Source: Salicibibacter cibi
GTDB taxonomy: Bacteria; Bacillota; Bacilli; Bacillales; Marinococcaceae
Reading direction: 5' to 3'
Length of the DNA stretch: 64,000 nucleotides
Assembly (NCBI RefSeq): GCF_016495865.1
Contig: NZ_CP054706.1
Location: 930,001-994,000 of the forward strand
Shown: in pieces, positions 12,450 to 23,838 of the stretch
Layout of the letters: each line of letters opens with the position of its first letter
Position numbering within the stretch: the stretch's first letter is position 1
Translations under genes and position numbers: made by a program
Notes under the pieces: model-generated
Told to the model about the DNA's origin: nothing
What the model saw: only the letters and a program-made list of their open reading frames with translations
Database searches by the model: none

Positions 12450-12629
12450 ATGGGGAAAAAGATAACCTATGAAGTAGAAAAAAATGAAACGATTGCCGAA
12501 TGTTTAGACAGGATAGCAAGAGATGGATATGAGCCCGTACGCAGGATGGAGAAACCTGTTTTTCGGGAAGGGAACAACGAGGTTGAAGTGGCAGAACAAC
12601 GGGTGCAATTTGAGGCTAGGAAGAAATAG
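12450..12629 (+). CDS. NETI motif-containing small protein (YebG-like)
   Basis: A 59-residue cytoplasmic protein directly abutting the UPF0316 stop (TAAATG). It contains the eponymous Asn-Glu-Thr-Ile motif in EVEKNETIAECLDRIARDGYEPVRR and ends in a charged tail. GGAGTG lies in the 3' end of the preceding gene at normal distance. The family (YebG) always seems to follow YebE-type UPF0316 genes, so the two probably act together. Function is unknown. Confidence 0.88.
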   Translation: MGKKITYEVEKNETIAECLDRIARDGYEPVRRMEKPVFREGNNEVEVAEQRVQFEARKK

Positions 12630-12648
12630 GGGTGGGACTATTTATAAG

Positions 12649-14088
12649 TTGTTGATTGCGGATCGGGACAAAGAAGAAATACGGGGCATTCAATGGTTTA
12701 TCTCAAAGTATTCTATGCCGATCACAACAATACAAACTGCTGATTCGCTTTCAGATTTTGTAGCTGAATTGGAGAATATGTCCCCGGATATTGTTTGTAT
12801 GGAACTGGAAATGATGGCAAGTGATAAATGGGAGGTAGTCAAATCGTACATCCCACGTGCGGCCCAGGTGATGGCCATGACGGCTGAACCAACGTTTGAA
12901 AGAGCTATGCAAGCATTGGAATTGCAAATCGTGGACTTATGGGTTAAACCATTGTCCCCACCTCGAGTCAAACGTGGGTTACAGCAGGCGGCGGAAAAGT
13001 TATCGTTGGTCAATGACCGTCAGGTTGAGCAGCAGGACCAAGTGCGTTATGAATCATTATTTATTGAGGATGGTGCTCCTTATCCATTTCCTATGTTTTT
13101 GTTAAAACCGGAAAATATCGGTGATCTGACCCGTTTAAGAAAATTTATCGAGCAGTTTGATTTTTATTATGATCCTCTTGTTTTTTCACTAAGTGATCGA
13201 ATTGCGCTTGTCTTTAAACATGATTATCGAGATCCGATGGCATTATCCCAACGTTTCTTGCGTGAATGGTCCTTGGTTGCAGACACTCCGTTAGCGGTCG
13301 TTGTTCATGAGCAAAAGCAAGAGGTATCGCTTCATCAAGCGTATGTAAAATTGCGCAAAGGCATGGAAATTACATTTTTCACTGGTTACAATCAAGTGTT
13401 GGATGTAGAAACAGTTCGTGAGTGGAGAGTTATCGATCCTTTTTTAACGATGGAGGACCAACGTAAATGGGTTTATATGCTGGAAGAAGGAAAAGGAAAG
13501 GAAATAAAGACTTGGTTGTATGAGGAATTTTTTGCATTGGAACCTCCTTATCCGGAGCCCGGTTTACTGCGGACCCGATTGACGAGTATCCTTGCACAAG
13601 TGCGGCGATTCATGGATCGCAACGGCATCGAAAATCAAGAGATGGAAACGTATTACAAAACCATCTTTGATAAAATTTTATACAGTCCGGTTCTTTATCG
13701 CATCGTTCAGGATATGTTTCTTTTTATAAATCATCTTGTGCAGGTACGAACGTTCTCTTCTATAGGAAAGACAAGCGCCATAGAGCGAGCGGTTTCCTAT
13801 ATGGAAGAGCAGTTTGCCGATGCTGGGCTAACCTTAACTAACGTCGCGATGTATGTGGAGCTGAGTCCTTCTTACCTCAGCCATTTACTTTCTAAAAACT
13901 ATCAACGTTCATTTCGTGAGATTTTGCTCTCTATTCGCCTGCAAAAAGCGAAAGAAATGCTACGCTTTTCAGATGAAAGCATACAAAATATCGCCTGGGC
14001 AACTGGGTTTAATAATGCCAATTATTTTAGTCGTGTGTTCAAAATGCACACAGGACAAGCTCCCCGGATTTATAGACACTCCGATTAA
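12649..14088 (+). CDS. AraC-type response regulator with a degenerate receiver domain
   Basis: About 479 residues. The N-terminus is a receiver-like domain (LIADRDKEE...PDIVCMELEMM...MTAEP...LWVKPLSPPRV). A central region of about 250 residues has no recognised motif, and the C-terminal 100 residues are a double helix-turn-helix AraC domain ending in the typical IAWATGFNNANYFSRVFKMHTGQAP. The expected phospho-acceptor Asp is a Glu (about residue 52), although the Thr and Lys of the receiver are retained. The start is uncertain: TTG 12649 follows GGGGTGGGA by 11 nt, and an ATT three codons earlier gives the more usual beginning IYKLLIADRD. It lies directly before hutU on the same strand with its own terminator and probably controls the hut cluster; that role is inferred from position. 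Confidence 0.75.
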   Translation: MLIADRDKEEIRGIQWFISKYSMPITTIQTADSLSDFVAELENMSPDIVCMELEMMASDKWEVVKSYIPRAAQVMAMTAEPTFERAMQALELQIVDLWVKPLSPPRVKRGLQQAAEKLSLVNDRQVEQQDQVRYESLFIEDGAPYPFPMFLLKPENIGDLTRLRKFIEQFDFYYDPLVFSLSDRIALVFKHDYRDPMALSQRFLREWSLVADTPLAVVVHEQKQEVSLHQAYVKLRKGMEITFFTGYNQVLDVETVREWRVIDPFLTMEDQRKWVYMLEEGKGKEIKTWLYEEFFALEPPYPEPGLLRTRLTSILAQVRRFMDRNGIENQEMETYYKTIFDKILYSPVLYRIVQDMFLFINHLVQVRTFSSIGKTSAIERAVSYMEEQFADAGLTLTNVAMYVELSPSYLSHLLSKNYQRSFREILLSIRLQKAKEMLRFSDESIQNIAWATGFNNANYFSRVFKMHTGQAPRIYRHSD

Positions 14089-14118: not shown

Positions 14119-14294
14119 ATGACATAAAAGTATCATTTCAAAATAAAATGCTATAAAATATCCCGGTTTTTCATATATATATCTATTAATGTTATATATT
14201 TTTATAGAAATTTTAAAGGATATCGTCTGTTTTGTTCGAGTCTTCATTGCTAAGATTAAATTAAGAAATGTTTGATGCAGAAAGGATGGATCAT

Positions 14295-15953
14295 GTGAAA
14301 AACGTTGAGCAATACAGAGGTTCAGAATTAAACACAAAAGGCTGGATCCAGGAAGCGGCGTTGCGGATGTTGAATAACAATTTACATCCGGATGTAGCTG
14401 AGAATCCGGACAATTTAGTCGTATATGGTGGAATTGGTAAGGCTGCCCGCAATTGGGAGAGTTACGATGCGATTGTAGAAACTTTGAAAACGCTTAACGA
14501 CAATGAAACGTTGCTGGTTCAGTCTGGAAAGCCGGTGGCGGTGTTTAAGTCACATAAGGACGCGCCCAAGGTACTAATGGCCAATTCCAACCTCGTTCCT
14601 GCCTGGGCGAATTGGGACCATTTCCAGCAGTTGGACCAAAAAGGGTTAATGATGTACGGACAAATGACCGCCGGAAGCTGGATTTATATAGGAAGCCAGG
14701 GCATTGTACAAGGAACATATGAAACATTCGGGGAATGTGGCAAACAGCACTTCGGGGGTTCTTTGGCTAGGACGATTACGGTCACCGCCGGTCTTGGGGG
14801 TATGGGTGGTGCTCAGCCGTTGGCGGTTACATTGAACGGGGGTGTGTGTATCGCCATTGAAATTGATGCTCATCGCATCAGTCGCCGCCTGGAAACGAAT
14901 TATTTGGATGTTTCTACGGAAAGTTTAGAAGAAGCCTTACAGTGGGCGGAGAAAGCTAAAAATAAAAATGAAGCGCTTTCGATTGGCTTGCTGGGGAACG
15001 CGGCAGAAATTCTTTCGGAAATGCTGCAGCAAGGATTTACACCTGACATTTTAACCGATCAAACCTCTGCTCATGACCCTTTGAATGGATATGTTCCTAT
15101 CGATATGACCGTGGAGCAAGCGGCTGACCTTCGCAAACAGGATCCTGAAGTTTATACGAAACACTCCCGGCGAAGCATCGTGTCTCATGTAGAAGCTATG
15201 CTTCAACTGCAAAATCAGGGGGCCATTACGTTTGACTATGGAAATAACATTCGCCAAGTGGCAAAAGACGAGGGTGTTGAACGTGCCTTCGATTTCCCCG
15301 GCTTTGTTCCAGCTTATATCCGTCCTCAGTTTTGTGAAGGAAAAGGCCCTTTTCGGTGGGTGGCTCTGTCAGGAGACCCGGAAGATATCTATAAGACGGA
15401 TGAAGTCATTTTACAAGAATTCAGCGAGAATGAGCATTTATGCAACTGGATTCGGATGGCCCAGGAAAAAATCAGCTTCCAAGGCCTACCTTCAAGGATT
15501 TGTTGGCTGGGATATGGTGAAAGAGTGAAATTCGGAAAAATCATCAATGACTTGGTTGCCCGCGGAGAAATAAAAGCACCGATCGTTATCGGGCGTGATC
15601 ATCTTGATTCCGGTTCAGTCGCTTCTCCAAACCGAGAGACGGAAGCGATGAAAGATGGCAGCGATGCGGTTGCCGACTGGCCGATATTGAATGCGTTGAT
15701 CAACAGCGTTGGTGGAGCCAGCTGGGTCAGTGTCCACCATGGCGGGGGTGTTGGCATGGGTTATTCGTTGCACGCGGGCATGGTTATCGTTGCTGATGGA
15801 ACAAAAGAAGCGGGAGAACGTCTCGAACGTGTATTGACCACCGATCCCGGCATGGGGGTTGCGCGCCATGTCGATGCCGGATATGAACTTGCGGAAGAGA
15901 CGGCGAATCACCACGATGTGCAAATTCCAATGTTGAAAAGGAGTGGATCATAA
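14295..15953 (+). CDS. hutU: Urocanate hydratase (urocanase)
   Basis: HutU adds water to urocanate with tightly bound NAD+ to give imidazolonepropionate, the second step of histidine breakdown. From the GTG at 14295 (preceded by AAAGGATGG) it is 552 residues, identical in length to the Bacillus subtilis enzyme; in-frame ATGs at 14268 and 14286 are possible alternatives. Key segments are [30 protein letters not shown] (NAD binding), and the conserved Cys in [14 protein letters not shown], which corresponds to the active-site Cys of Pseudomonas urocanase. [21 protein letters not shown] and [11 protein letters not shown] are also intact. It abuts hutI (TAA ATG). Confidence 0.97.
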
Positions 15954-17228
15954 ATGGATAAAGCAATCTTTATTTCCAATGCAGCACAATTAATTACCAT
16001 GGCCAATCATACAGATCAACCGGCAAAGAAAGAAGCTATGTCGCAACTCAACCTCATTGAAAACGGAAGTCTCCTCATTGAGGACGGAAAAATTATAGAA
16101 GCCGGACGTGACGAAGATATACGTAACAAGTATAAAAATCGCATTCAAGCAGCTGATCATTTAGATGCCAGCGGCAAAGTCGTTACTCCCGGTCTTGTTG
16201 ATCCTCACACCCATCTTGTGCACGCGGGGACGAGGGAAAATGAATATGCGATGCGCCTTGAAGGTCAGAGTTACATGGACATCATGAATGCCGGAGGGGG
16301 CATTCATGCGACGACCCGTGCCACCCAACAAGCCGGCCACGAGCAGTTATATGCAGAATCTAGGAAAAGACTCGATCAATTCCTCATCCACGGAGTAACG
16401 ACCGTGGAAGCAAAAAGCGGCTACGGTTTAACACTTGAGCACGAGTTGAAACAATTGGAAGTCGCTCATGAGCTGCAAGCGGACCACCCGGTGGACATTG
16501 TCTCTACGTTCATGGGTGCGCATGCTATCCCGATGGATGAGAAAGACAACCCTGAACCTTTTGTTGATCGTGTCATTGAAGAAATGATACCGGTCGTTGC
16601 TGAAAAAAATCTGGCGGAATTCAATGATGTATTTTGTGAACGAGGGGTTTTCACCCCAAGTCAATCAAGGAGAATTCTGGAAGCGGGCAAACAATACGGT
16701 TTAACGCCGAAAATCCATGCGGACGAAATTGAACCTTATGAAGGTTCGGAGCTCGCTGCAGAAGTAGGCGCTATCTCTGCCGATCATCTGCTAAAGGCTT
16801 CTGACAAAGGTATAAGGGAAATGGCGAATGCTGATGTCGTCGGTGTGTTACTTCCGGGAACCGCCTTTTTCCTCATGGCCGATTTCGCTGACGCGAGAAA
16901 AATGATCGATGCCGGTTTGGCCATGGCACTCTCCACCGATGCAAATCCAGGTTCATCACCGACCATTTCGCTGCCGTTTATCATGAACCTCGGTTGCCTG
17001 AAGATGGGGATGACTCCCGAAGAAGTGATGACTGCGACGACGATCAATGCTGCCCATGCCATTGGTCGTGCTGATGAGATCGGCAGTCTTGAACCGGGTA
17101 AAAAAGGGGACCTGACTATTTTTGATGTCCCGAACCATCTGACTTTATCGTACAAATATGGCATGAATCACGTGGACACAGTCGTAAAAGACGGCCATGT
17201 GCGTTTGGCAGGTGGACAGTTACAATGA
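15954..17228 (+). CDS. hutI: Imidazolonepropionase
   Basis: HutI is an amidohydrolase that opens imidazolonepropionate to formimidoylglutamate. The 424-residue protein has the metal-binding HxH of DPHTHLVHAGTRENE (about residues 82-84), FMGAHAIP, the IHADEIEP metal-ligand segment and the STDANPGS Asp. The ATG follows the hutU stop without a gap, with GGAGTGG in the end of hutU. Its 3' end overlaps hutG by 4 nt. Confidence 0.97.
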   Translation: MDKAIFISNAAQLITMANHTDQPAKKEAMSQLNLIENGSLLIEDGKIIEAGRDEDIRNKYKNRIQAADHLDASGKVVTPGLVDPHTHLVHAGTRENEYAMRLEGQSYMDIMNAGGGIHATTRATQQAGHEQLYAESRKRLDQFLIHGVTTVEAKSGYGLTLEHELKQLEVAHELQADHPVDIVSTFMGAHAIPMDEKDNPEPFVDRVIEEMIPVVAEKNLAEFNDVFCERGVFTPSQSRRILEAGKQYGLTPKIHADEIEPYEGSELAAEVGAISADHLLKASDKGIREMANADVVGVLLPGTAFFLMADFADARKMIDAGLAMALSTDANPGSSPTISLPFIMNLGCLKMGMTPEEVMTATTINAAHAIGRADEIGSLEPGKKGDLTIFDVPNHLTLSYKYGMNHVDTVVKDGHVRLAGGQLQ

Positions 17229-18211
17229 CGCTTTATCCTTATCCAATGCTCGACAAGCCAAATCGAATCTGGAGCCACCAAACAGATAAAACAGAAGATC
17301 TTAAAGTGCATGAATGGATTGAAAATGTCGGGGAGGCTGCACCGAATTGGCAAGACTTTGATGTTACCATCCTCGGCGTGCCTCTTTCTAAGTCTTCCAT
17401 CAGCACTTCGGCGGCGAGTGAGAATCCGGAAATGATGCGCGAAGCATGGAAATCGTTTGGAACCTACAATTTGGATGAAGATATCGATTTGGCTCAGTTA
17501 AAAGTTATCGATCTTGGGAATGTGAAGCAACACGTGACCGATATTGGTTATACGCACATGAAGATCCAGGAGACGATGCTGGCGATGCGGACACATCATC
17601 CGCATACGCTTCCCCTTTCCCTTGGTGGAGATCACTCTATTACGGCGATGTTGGTGGAGGGGTGGAAGGAAGCTCATCCAAACGAAACGATTGGGATCCT
17701 TCAGCTTGATACCCATTTTGATTTAAGGGATCCCAATACGCTCGGCCCAGCCAATGGCACACCAATCCGCCAGTTGATAGAGAGTGAAACGATTCAAGGC
17801 AAATATGTCCACAATATCGGCTTGCATGGCTTTTTCAATGCAAAAGAGCTGAAAGCGTATGCCGACCAGGCAGGCATTCATTATACGACGATGAAGCAAG
17901 CTCGAAAACAGGGCATGGATCATGTGATCAATAAGGCCTTGCAGCAGTTGGCGAATCAAGTAGATACGATTTATCTCACCACGGACATGGATGTTCTCGA
18001 TATCGTCCATGGGCCGGCTGCGCCGGCCGCAACCCCGGGCGGTATGTACTCGGAAGAATTGTTCGAAGCTGTACAAATCGCTGGCGAACACCCGAAAGTG
18101 AGGGCGATGGACATCGTCTGTCTTGATCCGAGGAAAGATATCGGTGATCTATCGGTCAAAAGCGCCGTGCACACGATGCTCTCTTTTTTGACGGGGTATT
18201 GTAGGCGATAG
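17225..18211 (+). CDS. hutG: Formimidoylglutamase
   Basis: HutG is an arginase-fold binuclear manganese enzyme that splits formimidoylglutamate into glutamate and formamide, the last step of the pathway. The 328-residue protein shows LGGDHSI (about residues 137-143), LDTHFDLRD in place of the usual DAHxD, and TTDMDVLD (DxDxxD), which together hold the metal ligands. The ATG overlaps the hutI stop (ATGA). A non-coding gap of 188 nt follows before the BCCT gene, and no good terminator is visible in it. Confidence 0.95.
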   Translation: MTLYPYPMLDKPNRIWSHQTDKTEDLKVHEWIENVGEAAPNWQDFDVTILGVPLSKSSISTSAASENPEMMREAWKSFGTYNLDEDIDLAQLKVIDLGNVKQHVTDIGYTHMKIQETMLAMRTHHPHTLPLSLGGDHSITAMLVEGWKEAHPNETIGILQLDTHFDLRDPNTLGPANGTPIRQLIESETIQGKYVHNIGLHGFFNAKELKAYADQAGIHYTTMKQARKQGMDHVINKALQQLANQVDTIYLTTDMDVLDIVHGPAAPAATPGGMYSEELFEAVQIAGEHPKVRAMDIVCLDPRKDIGDLSVKSAVHTMLSFLTGYCRR

Positions 18212-18289
18212 GGAATGCTACCATAAATCCTTGGTAATAACTATAGGCTAAACACTGAGAAATAATAATAAAGAAAAAAGAACTTCTTT

Positions 18290-18303
18290 TGTAAGCGCAT
18301 ATA
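18290..18303 (+). promoter_or_regulatory. Possible CcpA (cre) site before the BCCT gene
   Basis: TGTAAGCGCATATA matches the cre consensus TGWAANCGNTNWCA at 12 of 14 positions. It lies 97 nt before the BCCT start in the 188-nt gap after hutG. Catabolite control would fit an import/degradation unit, but two mismatches make this tentative. Confidence 0.3.
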
Positions 18304-18399
18304 TATACTAACTTATTAAAAACAGTTATCGCTCATGATGATGGATATATGGTGCTATGGTCATAGAGTTTGACAAATTGTGGTTTTTGGGGGTCTCAA

Positions 18400-20055
18400 A
18401 TGGTTGAAGAAAAGAAGATTCGTTGGCCAGTTTTTTTGCCGATTGCATTTATATTGGTAATAACTGCATTGATTGCAGTATTCTGGCCTTCATCGTATTA
18501 CGAACTGCAAACAACAATTGTGGATTTTGCCTTTAATAATTTTGGTTGGTTGTTTAATTTCACGGTATTGGCCCTCATTTTTATAAGTTTGTTCTTAGGG
18601 TTTTCAAAATATGGAAATATTAAGTTTGGCGGATCAGAAGCTAAACCTTCTATTACTAAATGGCAATGGTTTGCTATTTCTTTAACGGCAGGTATAGGCA
18701 CGGGGATTGTTTTTTGGGGTTTGGCAGAGCCGCTAACATTTTTTAGTGAACCACCAGAAGTACTTGGCATTCAACCAGGAACGGAAGAAGCTGCTGTTTT
18801 TTCAATGGCTTCAAGTATGGTCCATTGGACACTAGCTCCCTATTCACTCTATGTGATGGCAGGTATAGCCGTTGCCTATGCATGTTACAATATGAAATTG
18901 CCTTATACAATAAATTCAACTCTCTATCCTCTTCTTGGAGACAGGGCATTTGGTCATTTAGGAACCTTTGTAAATATTCTTTGTATTTTTGGAATTGCAG
19001 GTGGCATGGCGGCTGTCCTAGGCGAAGGTGTGCTTCAGATAGGTAGTGGAATAGATTACTTGACCGGTATCACAGCAGGTCCATTTATGTGGTCGGTTTT
19101 GGTAGTCTTGATAACAGTCACTTATGTTATTTCCAGTTATAGTGGGCTACAAAAAGGAATTCGATTTTTGTCGGATCAAAATACTAAAATATATCTGTGT
19201 ATATTGGCTTTTATTATTGTTGTCGGACCTACGTCGTTCATATTTAATTTAGGATCGCAAAGTACTGGATATTTTCTCAGCAATGTTTTGGAACGTTTAA
19301 CATGGACAAGCCCCATGGAAGGTTCAGAGTGGCCGAGGGAGTGGCCGTTATTTCACTGGTCAATTTTTTTAGCTTATGCACCTATCATTGGTATGTTTTT
19401 GGCAAGATTAGCTTATGGCAGAACTTTACGCCAGTTCGTCATTTTTAACTTACTTTTGCCGGCTGGTTTTGGCATGTTATGGTTTTGGGTTTTTGGCGGA
19501 GCAGCAATATTTTATGACTGGCAAGGTGGTAATCAACTTTGGAATTTGATTCAGAATGAGGAAAGTGGTCTAGAGATTTCTTTGTTCGTTTTCTTAGAGC
19601 ATCTTCCGTGGACAGGGTTAATAAGCTTAATTATGTTGTTTTGTATTTTTATCTCCTTTACAACTATAGCTGATTCCATCACAACTACAGTTTCTGCATT
19701 AACCACGACTGGAAACACTTTCAAAAATCCGGAACCCCTTGCCAAGGTAAAAATATTTTGGGGCTCACTTTTAGGTTTGTTGGCTTTGCTAACCATTACA
19801 GCAGGCACTGGTGGTGGCGAAATTACAGCGGTTGATGCAAATAAACAAATGGCGACCGTCGCAGGATTTTCGATTCTATTTTTTATCATCCTACAAGTGA
19901 TTTCAACTTTAAAGAGTATTATTCGTCAAGCTGATTATGATAAGACTAATTATCCAGAAAGCGCATACAACAATCACTCTTATGAAAATAAGGGTGTCAA
20001 CAAAGAATCCTACTCAAACACTACAATATCTAACGATTATGGAGAAAAAAGGTGA
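18400..20055 (+). CDS. BCCT-family transporter (betaine-type substrate, possibly histidine betaine)
   Basis: A 551-residue, roughly 12-TM carrier of the betaine/carnitine/choline family. The family signature GIGTGIVFWGLAEPLTFFSEPP is clear, and EYGRTLRQF-like AYGRTLRQF follows TM8. The two aromatic boxes that grip trimethylammonium in BetP-type carriers are altered: TM4 reads HWTLAPYSLY (usually HWxLHPWAIY), and TM8 reads HWSIFLAYAPIIGMF (usually WxWWxxWxPFxGxF). A substrate other than glycine betaine is therefore likely. The ATG at 18400 follows GGGGGTCT; an in-frame TTG at 18370 is rejected. The stop is 4 nt from the start of the MIO-less lyase, so the two are co-translated. By eye both genes are AT-richer than hutUIG and hutH. 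The C-terminal tail is long and polar. Confidence 0.88.
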   Translation: MVEEKKIRWPVFLPIAFILVITALIAVFWPSSYYELQTTIVDFAFNNFGWLFNFTVLALIFISLFLGFSKYGNIKFGGSEAKPSITKWQWFAISLTAGIGTGIVFWGLAEPLTFFSEPPEVLGIQPGTEEAAVFSMASSMVHWTLAPYSLYVMAGIAVAYACYNMKLPYTINSTLYPLLGDRAFGHLGTFVNILCIFGIAGGMAAVLGEGVLQIGSGIDYLTGITAGPFMWSVLVVLITVTYVISSYSGLQKGIRFLSDQNTKIYLCILAFIIVVGPTSFIFNLGSQSTGYFLSNVLERLTWTSPMEGSEWPREWPLFHWSIFLAYAPIIGMFLARLAYGRTLRQFVIFNLLLPAGFGMLWFWVFGGAAIFYDWQGGNQLWNLIQNEESGLEISLFVFLEHLPWTGLISLIMLFCIFISFTTIADSITTTVSALTTTGNTFKNPEPLAKVKIFWGSLLGLLALLTITAGTGGGEITAVDANKQMATVAGFSILFFIILQVISTLKSIIRQADYDKTNYPESAYNNHSYENKGVNKESYSNTTISNDYGEKR

Positions 20056-20059
20056 TAAC

Positions 20060-21619
20060 ATGAGTGAAAGACTTCCCATTGAAGTCACTATCAATGATCA
20101 GAATATGACTATAGAAGAACTGGTTAGCATCGCTAGATATAAAAATACATTGTATTTATCTGAAGAGGTGAAAAAAAGGCTTAAGGATCAACGCGCTATA
20201 CTAGATAAAACTCTTTATGAAAAAGATATTCCTATGTATGGAATTAATACAGGCGTGGGGGAGAATAGCAACACTTCGATCTCCACACCTGATTTAAAAA
20301 AGTTACAAAACAATATAATCTTTAGTCATGCTTGTGGGATGGGCGAACCTTTGGAAGACGAAATTGTTAGGGGCATTATTGTTGTAATGGTAAAAAACCT
20401 ATCGCTTGGCTATTCAGGAATCAGATTAGAAACAGTAGAAGCATTGATAACATTGCTGAATCATAAAATTACCCCTATAGTACCAAGGGAGGGGTCTCTT
20501 GGATATTTGTCTCCCCAAGCTCATATTAGTTTAGTTTTATTGGGTTTTGGTGAAGCTTATATTCATAATCAACGCATTTCTGGAAAAAAAGCATTAAATC
20601 AAGCTAACCTTAAACCGCTTGAATTACACGAGAAGGAAGGGCTTTCCTTGATCAACGGTACATCTGATATGACAGGTATTGGAGCTTTAGCTATTTATGA
20701 TGTTATAAACCTTATAAAAACATCGGATGTTGTATCTATGATTAGTTTTGAAGCACTAAAAAGTAGTTATTATGCTTACGATGAACGCCTTGCTCGGGTG
20801 AAATCTCATCAAGGTCAAATCAACACCCAAAAAAATATCAAATCGATTATTAATAACAGTCGTCTTGCTGAAAAGAATAAAAGCTATCGAACGCAAGACG
20901 CATTAAGTATTAGAGCTGTACCTCAAGTTCATGGGGCAGGCAAGGACGCCCTTAGGTATTGTAAAAATGTTATAGACATTGAAATGAATGCAGCGACGGA
21001 CAATCCATTGATTTTTTTTGATGAGGTTGATGAGAATGCCGAAATGAATGTGTTTTCGTCTGCAAATCCTGTCGGTGAAAACGTGGCACAGGCACTAGAT
21101 TTTTTAACGATGGCTGTGGCTGAAATAGCAAATATATCTGAAAGACGAACATTTCGGTTAGTTTCACCGCAATACAGTGATTTACCGAATTATTTAGTAA
21201 AGGATAATGGGCTTAATTCGGGTCTGATGATTCCACAATATGTTGCTGCTTCTCTTGTATCAGATAATAAAATCTATGCACACCCTTCTTCAGTTGATTC
21301 GATCTCTACCTCAGGTGGTCAAGAGGACCATGCCAGTATGGGGTATTCGGCTGCGTTAAAGTTGAGAAAGGTGATAAAAAATAGTGAAAAGGTTTTGGGG
21401 ATTGAATGGTTATCCAGCTGTCAAGCACTGGAATATTTAGATCCTTATCAGAGTGGAGAAGGAACTTACGTTGCTTTTGCTCTGTTAAGAAAAGATGTAT
21501 CCTTTTTGTCGGAAGATAGGGTTTTATCTCCAGATATGAATAGAGCCGAGCAATTAATTCATTCTGAAATATTGGTAAAGAATGTTGAAGAAAAAGTCGG
21601 TACGTTGCTTGTGGATTAA
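20060..21619 (+). CDS. MIO-less histidine ammonia-lyase homologue, ergothionase-like
   Basis: A 519-residue member of the aromatic amino acid lyase superfamily. Compared with hutH in this same window, [14 protein letters not shown] has become GSLG-YLSPQAH, so the Ala-Ser-Gly that cyclises to the MIO cofactor is deleted. The catalytic Tyr (YGINTGVG, Tyr60), the His of SHACGMGEP (His90), [25 protein letters not shown] and GGQEDHASMG remain. The Tyr of HutH's DAYSIR is Leu here, and GNFHGQP is ANPVGEN. Without MIO it cannot deaminate an ordinary amino acid by the HAL route. Known MIO-less relatives include ergothionase, which eliminates trimethylamine from ergothioneine. The BCCT carrier 4 nt upstream and the hut genes around it support a histidine-betaine lyase. 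A GGAGAAAAAAGGTGATAAC leader precedes the ATG at 20060. The exact substrate is inference. Confidence 0.8.
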   Translation: MSERLPIEVTINDQNMTIEELVSIARYKNTLYLSEEVKKRLKDQRAILDKTLYEKDIPMYGINTGVGENSNTSISTPDLKKLQNNIIFSHACGMGEPLEDEIVRGIIVVMVKNLSLGYSGIRLETVEALITLLNHKITPIVPREGSLGYLSPQAHISLVLLGFGEAYIHNQRISGKKALNQANLKPLELHEKEGLSLINGTSDMTGIGALAIYDVINLIKTSDVVSMISFEALKSSYYAYDERLARVKSHQGQINTQKNIKSIINNSRLAEKNKSYRTQDALSIRAVPQVHGAGKDALRYCKNVIDIEMNAATDNPLIFFDEVDENAEMNVFSSANPVGENVAQALDFLTMAVAEIANISERRTFRLVSPQYSDLPNYLVKDNGLNSGLMIPQYVAASLVSDNKIYAHPSSVDSISTSGGQEDHASMGYSAALKLRKVIKNSEKVLGIEWLSSCQALEYLDPYQSGEGTYVAFALLRKDVSFLSEDRVLSPDMNRAEQLIHSEILVKNVEEKVGTLLVD

Positions 21620-21778
21620 TACTCGGCATTGTCTTATATATACCTTTTTGTATTGAGAAACTCGTACCTCGCAATCATCAATTGACTTCCTACCCTAAGA
21701 CGAATAAAATAAAAAGTGAATTACTCTTAGTCATTAGTTAACAGTGTGTGTAATTCATGGCATGAAAGAGTTGTTAAT

Positions 21779-22222
21779 ATGGCTTTAAACCAGAACTTTC
21801 GCATCGGGCGTAAAGCCCTTCTTTTACTCTTGAATGAGGAAGATAAGAAACAGCATGAACGTCTTGCCGATGCCGGTTGGTGTTATTGCACGGGGAAAGT
21901 CGGTTCCATGGAAGCGCATAAAGTTGTAGCGGCAGTGGAGACGGCTGCGAAAAATAATCAAATCATTAATAAAGAATTATACAGGGAAGGTCATGCCTTG
22001 TACCATGCGATTATCGAAGCGCTTCAGGGAGTAACGAGAGGGCAGGTACAAATAGGTTCAGTGTTGCGGACCGTGGGCTTAAGTTTTTCTGTCGTCAGAG
22101 GTTCGCCATATGAAAACAGCGCTGAAGGCGAATGGATCGCAGTTTCCCTTTATGGAACAATTGGCGCGCCAGTCAAAGGCGCCGAACACGAAACGATTGG
22201 TTTAGGTATCAACCATATATAA
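21779..22222 (+). CDS. hutP: Hut operon antiterminator
   Basis: HutP is an RNA-binding protein that, with L-histidine and Mg2+, binds NAG triplets in the hut leader and opens the downstream terminator. The 147-residue protein is full length (Bacillus subtilis 148) and carries [38 protein letters not shown] and [31 protein letters not shown], covering the histidine/metal and RNA-binding regions. An in-frame GTG at 21746 would add residues absent from the family and is rejected. Its binding site lies 10 nt after the stop. Confidence 0.95.
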
Positions 22223-22326: not shown

Positions 22327-23838
22327 ATGTTAATCCTGGATGGAGAATCCTTGAACCTTGAGGGAATGAAGAAGCTTTTATATGAAAAAGAACGACTCAC
22401 AGTTTCTGTCCACAGTCTTAAAAAGGTGGAAGAAAGCCGAAAAGCAGTTGAAAAAATCGTGGCCGAGAGTAAAATTGTATACGGGATTAATACTGGCTTT
22501 GGCAAGTTCAGTGATGTTTTGATCGAAAAAAAAGATGTCGAAACGTTACAATGTAATTTAATACAATCCCATGCTTGTGGGGTGGGTGAGCCCTTTCCGG
22601 AAGTTGTATCAAGGGCAATGCTCATTCTTAGGACGAACGCGTTGCTAAAGGGCTATTCAGGGGTTCGGCCGCTGCTAATTCAGAAACTGGTCGATTTGGT
22701 CAATGCTGATATTCATCCGGTCGTCCCGCAGCAAGGATCCTTAGGGGCAAGTGGTGACCTCGCGCCGCTCGCTCACTTGGCGTTAACGTTAATGGGGGAA
22801 GGAGAGGTTTTTTATAAAAAAGAAAGGGTCTCTGCGGCAAATGCCTTAGAGCAAGAAAGAATCACTCCAATCTCCTTAACAGCAAAAGAAGGATTGGCGC
22901 TTATCAATGGGACACAAGCGATGACGGCCATGGGGGTAGTTGCTCATCTTGAAGCAGAGAATATCGCTTATCATGCGGATTTAATCAGTGCAGTGACGAT
23001 GGAAGGCCTGCGCGGGATTATAGACGCTTTTGATGCTGATATTCATCTTGCGCGTGGCTATCAGGAACAGATTGACGTCGCCGAACGAATCAGGCATTAT
23101 TTGCGGGATAGCAGGTTGACGACGAAACAAGGGGAGTTGAGAGTCCAGGATGCGTACTCCATCCGTTGCATCCCGCAAGTGCATGGTGCGACATGGCAAA
23201 CATTGGGCTATGTCAAAGACAAATTGGAAATTGAAATGAATGCAGCGACGGACAATCCACTTATCTTCAATGAAGGAGAAAAAGTCATATCCGGAGGAAA
23301 TTTTCACGGGCAGCCGATCGCTCTGGCAATGGATTTCTTAAAAGTTGCGATTGCGGAAATCGCCAATATTTCGGAGAGAAGGGTAGAAAGGCTAGTGAAT
23401 CCCCAACTCAACGACGACTTACCGCCTTTTTTAAGTCCGTCTCCGGGTCTGGAGTCCGGCGCTATGATTATGCAATATACGGCCGCATCGTTAGTTTCCG
23501 AAAACAAAACATTGGCGCACCCGGCGAGCGTCGACTCCATCCCTTCTTCAGCTAATCAGGAAGATCATGTAAGCATGGGAACGATCGCATCCAGACATGC
23601 ATATCAGATCATTACCAACACAAGAAAGGTATTAGCTATTGAAGCGATTTGCGCGTTGGAAGCCGCTGAATACCGTGGTATTCAGCGAATGGCGTCGAGC
23701 ACCCATACATTTTTAAAACACGTTCGCGACTTTATCAAGCCGATTATGAAAGATCGAATTTTTTCAAAAGATATTCAATCGATGGAGAATTGGTTAAAAG
23801 AAACGTCAAATCATCGGAACGCGGTATTACTGCAGTAA
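22327..23838 (+). CDS. hutH: Histidine ammonia-lyase
   Basis: HutH removes ammonia from L-histidine to give urocanate. The 503-residue protein retains the MIO tripeptide in [14 protein letters not shown] (Ala141-Ser142-Gly143), the catalytic Tyr of [11 protein letters not shown] (about residue 52), [38 protein letters not shown] and NQEDHVSMG. It is thus a complete canonical HAL, in contrast to the MIO-less homologue at 20060. TAGGTGA precedes the ATG. Expression is gated by the HutP terminator 30 nt upstream. Confidence 0.97.

Follow-up and report, generated by a model that had tools for sequence, protein, structure and literature searches.

Two kinds of enzyme from the histidine ammonia-lyase (HAL) superfamily are the closest described relatives of the protein considered here. 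HutH, the ordinary HAL, carries the tripeptide that forms its 4-methylideneimidazol-5-one (MIO) electrophile and releases ammonia, whereas ergothionase is described, in PMC13405746, as a MIO-less trimethylamine (TMA)-lyase of the same superfamily. On the transport side, the nearest described systems are BCCT carriers (BetP, the trimethylamine transporter 8zw8, CaiT) and EgtU, an ABC transporter for ergothioneine. We analysed a stretch of 64,000 nucleotides from Salicibibacter cibi (NZ_CP054706.1, positions 930,001 to 994,000; hereafter the window, all features given being on the + strand). In it a MIO-less HAL homologue (20060–21619) is preceded by a BCCT-family carrier (18400–20055; ATG at 18400, frame also open from a TTG at 18370). 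The initial annotation had placed the two genes between hutG and hutP with a gap of 4 nt and with HutU, HutI and HutG encoded just upstream, and had noted the deletion of the MIO tripeptide and the BCCT family. These observations are confirmed by coordinates, gene order, profile scores (PF02028 and PF00221 among them) and the GSLGYL motif. Sequence comparisons make it probable that the pair is a hercynine trimethylamine-lyase with a betaine importer, plugged into the hut pathway as a horizontally acquired module for hercynine utilisation.

In the proposed scheme the BCCT carrier would import hercynine (N-alpha-trimethylhistidine) and the lyase would eliminate TMA from it to give urocanate, which HutU, HutI and HutG would convert to glutamate, bypassing HutH. 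The equivalent of HAL Tyr53 would act as the base, and those of His83 and Glu414 would hold the imidazole. The MIO electrophile would be dispensable because trimethylammonium is already a cationic leaving group, while replacement of Tyr280 by Leu together with loss of the MIO loop would make room for the three methyls. We infer the horizontal gain, substrate, transport, chemistry, regulation and fate of TMA; for the chemistry, residues are numbered and their roles read as in HAL (Tyr53, His83, Gln277, Tyr280, Arg283, Glu414). A urocanate product, a leaving group that needs no MIO and carriers of quaternary-ammonium type together point to hercynine.

The literature lists hercynine among the quaternary ammonium compounds abundant in soils (PMC8550315), reports it in nine of 10 cyanobacterial strains (PMC3826126) and names fungi and actinobacteria as its makers (PMC7653990). 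No dedicated hercynine catabolic route or hercynine lyase was found in the open-access literature searched. If the proposal is right, hercynine gains a fate, TMA a further source and a protein group now filed as histidine ammonia-lyase a name. It would also be a natural experiment in enzyme evolution, a built-in electrophile being dropped when the substrate brings its own leaving group.

Active site and relatives of the lyase

The lyase matches PF00221 with 541 bits and passes the curated cut-off of the hutH model TIGR01225 (552 versus 539.15 bits), which is blind to MIO loss, so annotation by this model would name it hutH. Its MIO site reads GSLGYLSPQAH, with GSLGYL (codons 20492–20509) in place of GSLGASGDL, and the MIO tripeptide ASG is absent. 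The same change, with Ser, Gly and Asp of the MIO loop gone and Ala turned into Tyr, is found in all 14 members of a MIO-less clade (window lyase included) and in none of 47 HAL sequences; MIO-forming Ala-Ser-Gly occurs in none of the 14, and Ser-Gly is kept in all 47. At the HAL Tyr280 position, which is Leu282 of the window lyase (codon 20903–20905), Leu stands in 14 of 14 clade members, Tyr in 47 of 47 HALs and Val in both ergothionase-type sequences (L160 and L168), so that the position is hydrophobic in the latter as in the window lyase. The equivalents of Tyr53, His83, Gln277, Arg283 and Glu414 are unchanged throughout the clade. Read by their roles in HAL, these residues suggest that the imidazole side of HAL was kept and the amine side rebuilt. 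The window lyase thus shares with HutH the imidazole-site and base residues, hut linkage and, as proposed, urocanate as product; it differs in the lost MIO tripeptide, in Leu for Tyr280 and in a proposed leaving group that is TMA and not ammonia. Its open gene and its homologues in other genera at 55–60% identity argue that it is more than chance.

Of the 397 genomes searched in the order, six others carry homologues at this level, as do two further ones among the 398 searched in the class. Twelve Priestia plasmid records hold homologues at 59.7–59.9% identity, annotated hutH (gene tables read for L166 and L175, MIO-less motif confirmed in L166). The clade comprises nine close members, three at 46% (clade B: G491, G630 and Paenibacillus eucommiae) and two at 39–42% (clade C: Halobacillus sp. 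A5 and a second copy in G375). In the family of the window genome seven of 29 genomes gave matches at E ≤ 1e–80, with identities of 39–44% apart from the window lyase itself, and the three other genomes of its genus gave none at that threshold, HutH included. The families of G598 and G277, when searched, yielded no further close-clade genome. In the first, matches at E ≤ 1e–140 came from 36 of 39 genomes, identities beyond G598 being 46–53% and only some matches being examined singly; in the second, two of nine matched (G277 and G234). A contig scan, which is not a census, returned no close-clade member among its best 80 of 583 loci. These loci gave 73 lyase open reading frames (ORFs), five of them flagged as MIO-less; three of the five proved to be MIO-bearing, which left L069 and L146.

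The ORF filter passed 101 sequences, or 92 after removal of duplicates (11 MIO-less, 81 MIO-bearing), and five missed clade B and C members were added by hand; the Embleya locus L173 gave no lyase ORF through the filter and was left unused. A first tree, and the residue counts above, used 63 rows, including 47 of the 81 MIO-bearing ones. A second tree of 43 rows, rooted on L174 as outgroup, combined 25 of those 47 with L167, the 14 clade members and the two ergothionase-type rows. In the second tree the 14 MIO-less lyases form a single branch (support 100/99). Apart from it, the lyase of L160, which is linked to a thiourocanate hydratase, and a Nonomuraea row with the same type of motif form a group together with an Allorhizobium protein that bears MIO (99/98). 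The window lyase is separate from the hydratase-linked lyase in both trees. It should be noted that ergothionases are represented here by L160 (chosen by hydratase linkage) and L168 (by motif type) alone, neither of which is characterised. The Allorhizobium protein (L167:8992–10605, A. ampelinum plasmid pAtS4e) is annotated hutH and has an ABC carrier, an amidohydrolase and a Zn-dependent hydrolase as neighbours, with no hut genes.

Hut linkage, carriers and choice of substrate

Canonical hutU adjoins the lyase at 12 of the 14 clade loci, each time with hutI and/or hutG. The stretch read holds no MIO-bearing HutH at 13 loci, the window locus being the sole exception, and this makes the lyase the likely local source of urocanate. 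The eight linked HutUs, out of ten linked or suspected ones scored, reach 970–1011 bits with TIGR01228 and 683.5–734.5 bits with the thiourocanate hydratase model NF058530 (cut-off 930). In G234, G277 and G360 hutUIG lies next to the lyase and separate hutH-hutU loci are present as well (the G360 locus was read from plasmid record L166, standing for G360:C4). A second HutU-like protein, 51% identical to the window HutU, stands beside a clade-B lyase and canonical hutU (L066:6821–8584, L067:10000–11763). These divergent copies, in G491 and G630, score 751–753 bits as hutU and 633–635 bits as thiourocanate hydratase. An AraC-hutU-hutI-MFS locus is common to L161 and L162; it includes a clade-C lyase in G375, and the only PF00221 match within it in G208 is a fragment of 35 codons.

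Another reading would make the lyase either a histidine ammonia-lyase that works without MIO or a HutH paralogue that has no catalytic activity and acts as a regulator, the BCCT protein then being an unrelated osmolyte carrier. The pass by the hutH model agrees with this, and so does P. eucommiae (L069), where hutUIG stands with a MIO-less clade-B lyase and no other PF00221 match was found in the 10.3 Mb genome. However, 12 of 13 genomes, that of the window included, encode another PF00221 protein that is HutH-like at 649–708 bits (the MIO motif was read in fetched ones only), the Tyr53, His83, Arg283 and Glu414 equivalents are kept in 14 of 14, and carrier and lyase lie within one inserted block. 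We regard this reading as very unlikely.

The window carrier matches PF02028 with 427.7 bits and so shares its family with the known BCCT carriers, but it falls below the cut-offs of the glycine-betaine equivalog NF047988 (372 versus 650 bits) and of the general BCCT model TIGR00842 (324 versus 407.55). This fits, and does not prove, another substrate, presumably hercynine. The lyase recurs beside hut in other genomes, and the carrier type varies, with BCCT proteins at seven of 14 loci (four of type 1 and three of type 2, the types being 33–36% alike), OpuAC-type ABC carriers at three and MFS carriers at four. The OpuAC-type carriers, a carrier type shared with EgtU, adjoin the three clade-B lyases. 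None of the 13 genomes, window's included, has an EgtD match, with the limit that no control genome passed the model cut-off either; the betaine would presumably come from outside. The substrate that best fits a betaine-type carrier and a MIO-less lyase whose relatives recur with hutU is one that yields urocanate and already bears its leaving group, namely hercynine. Could the substrate instead be another alpha-N-modified histidine, such as dimethylhistidine, or could the enzyme be a broad histidine-betaine lyase? In favour of this, the retained HAL imidazole-site residues, together with canonical HutU close by, indicate that the product is a plain imidazole, and differing carrier families could mean differing substrates. 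Yet quaternary-ammonium-type carriers (BCCT, OpuAC) are found at 10 of 14 loci, and hercynine is a known natural compound of that class (PMC8550315, PMC3826126), so we consider this alternative improbable.

The initial annotation had proposed a histidine betaine as substrate, either hercynine or ergothioneine. Its hercynine half is supported by the recurrence of relatives together with hutU and hutI and/or hutG, the substrate being our own reading of that context, while the ergothioneine half, with thiourocanate flowing into Hut, was not supported. The sole urocanase of the genome is a canonical HutU by TIGR01228 (968 bits), with 707 bits against a cut-off of 930 for thiourocanate hydratase. 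In a PDB search the lyase scores 196 bits to 6s7j, ergothionase from T. denticola, versus 322–334 bits to the eight best HAL chains, and its MIO-site fragment 12.6 bits (E = 1.4) versus 46 to the best HAL; the comparison with 6s7j is by scores alone. No thiourocanate hydratase exceeds the model cut-off in the nine close-clade genomes or in a phylum sample of 249, and among the 13 genomes only G491 has one (1038 bits). This hydratase shares its locus with a MIO-less lyase of another kind, whose motif is GSLGVGDLQP, and with an S-Me-THD protein, an OpuAC carrier and two hydrolases, one an amidohydrolase and one of the M20 type. The clade-B lyase of G491, linked to hut, lies at another place, and a further PF00221 protein, the third in this genome, scores like HutH. 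The hydratase region itself (L160; G491:C1:380000–399000) has the appearance of an ergothioneine degradation locus.

An ergothionase at our locus would release TMA from ergothioneine, thiourocanate being handled by HutU or excreted. Such an enzyme has its precedent in the known MIO-less TMA-lyase (6s7j; Burkholderia sp. HME13), with which the window lyase shares the HAL superfamily by homology, absence of MIO and, as we propose, release of TMA from a histidine betaine by elimination. Both types have lost HAL Tyr280, and the tests given below do not reject a shared origin with the ergothionase-type row. Against it stand the missing hydratase in close-clade genomes and the pairing of the G491 hydratase with another lyase. 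The window lyase is also closer to HALs than to 6s7j, differs from L160 and L168 in its MIO-site change, and is linked to canonical hutU and not to thiourocanate hydratase. Immediately before the QED motif both ergothionase-type sequences have a Lys, which none of the 14 clade members shares. Ergothioneine was therefore rejected as the first-choice substrate, because the hydratase is missing, ergothionase is distant and the residues are different, and we rate an ergothionase here as unlikely.

Several observations weigh against hercynine as the substrate or against our use of context. The window lyase has Pro-Val at a motif where the other eight of the nine close members have Cys-His, and its end branch (0.69) is the longest of the nine (the clade-C pair reaches 0.80 and 0.71); together these suggest that the window copy may have drifted. 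The nearest solved relative of its carrier in the PDB search is the trimethylamine transporter 8zw8 (274 bits). Most genomes hold a HutH elsewhere, so a missing HutH neighbour is suggestive and no proof that the lyase makes urocanate. Two of the 14 loci (G375 and G208) have no hut genes within the 18 kb read, each genome having one hutU elsewhere, in G375 adjoining the second clade member. Finally, approximately unbiased (AU) tests, run without the long-branch row L168, leave a joint clade with the ergothionase-type lyase unrejected (P-value = 0.087, and 0.116 when L174 was left out too).

Independent loss of MIO is favoured by the 43-row tree, in which the starred branches require the HAL label to change twice, with the bootstrap unsettled and L168 and L174 on long branches; the 63-row tree requires it to change only once. 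A firm claim of independent loss was given up, as the AU tests leave one origin unrejected and the larger tree needs a single change. Common origin with the ergothionase-type lyases appears from these comparisons disfavoured, not rejected. The chances seem evenly balanced that MIO-bearing histidine lyases gave rise to MIO-free trimethylamine-lyases on two or more occasions, one lineage serving ergothioneine and another hercynine. The hercynine lineage would be a mobile chromosomal and plasmid module that swaps BCCT, OpuAC ABC and MFS carriers, makes an ordinary hut operon degrade a betaine and release TMA, and is hidden in databases under the name hutH.

Insertion between hutG and hutP

The pair appears to be a horizontally acquired module docked into the hut operon. 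A genome from another genus of the same family (G017) has the order AraC-hutU-hutI-hutG-hutP-hutH-NhaC without the pair, its flanking proteins being 84–92% identical to those of the window and its hutG-hutP spacing about 102 bp. By blastn, the contiguous hutG-hutP stretch of this genome (L169) matches window positions 18011–18210 (80%) and 21677–21975 (83%), with one further, chance-like match of 16 nt. The inserted module thus measures about 3.47 kb (18211–21676, both ends being local-alignment ends) and separates hutG from the hutP leader. Third-position GC of the two inserted genes is 0.29 and 0.32 versus a mean of 0.46, the lowest among the 27 window ORFs of at least 250 aa. The relatives G007 and G010 lack the pair too and have another gene between hutG and hutP; in G002 there is no hutU in the stretch read around HutH. 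None of the repeats listed marks the insertion ends.

Gene order and neighbouring genes

Genes run in the order AraC-type regulator, hutU, hutI, hutG, BCCT carrier, lyase, hutP, hutH, NhaC-type carrier, according to profile scans of the window. The 4 nt gap lies between the BCCT stop codon (20053–20055) and the lyase ATG at 20060, and the ribosome-binding-like aaaaaaggtga of the lyase overlaps that stop. The whole genome (3.81 Mb, one contig) encodes two PF00221 proteins, the MIO-less lyase and HutH, and one urocanase. The AraC-type regulator (12523–14088, PF12833/PF00165, start codon uncertain) has a receiver-like N-terminus, scoring 30.0 bits with PF00072, just below the cut-off of 30.2. It is 37–42% identical to eight of ten cluster regulators compared, and 27% and 22% to the remaining two. 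Such a regulator is a recurrent neighbour of the module, and an 84% counterpart is present in the module-free G017.

Canonical hutU (14268–15953) is the sole PF01175 match in the genome and is followed by imidazolonepropionase hutI (15954–17228, TIGR01224, 474 bits) and a hutG-type formimidoylglutamase of the arginase family (17225–18211, PF00491). The hutG product scores 204 bits with the formimidoylglutamase model TIGR01227, below its cut-off of 229, and the Priestia counterpart is annotated as agmatinase family. Downstream of the lyase are the antiterminator hutP (21779–22222; NF002838, 245.8 bits as scanned from 21776; ATG at 21779, frame open from a GTG at 21746) and hutH, an ordinary MIO-bearing histidine ammonia-lyase with the ASGD motif (22327–23838; TIGR01225, 718.6 bits). 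A promoter scan gave fewer sites than in shuffled sequences and a terminator scan about as many; between 12000 and 26000 there was no Rfam match at gathering thresholds. Membrane proteins whose starts resemble one another by eye occur repeatedly, downstream of hutG or the lyase, in other loci (L064:10456–11796, L146:14549–15892, L170:8046–9305 and L171:6996–8345), and the L064 protein, the sole copy scanned, has a Gate domain.

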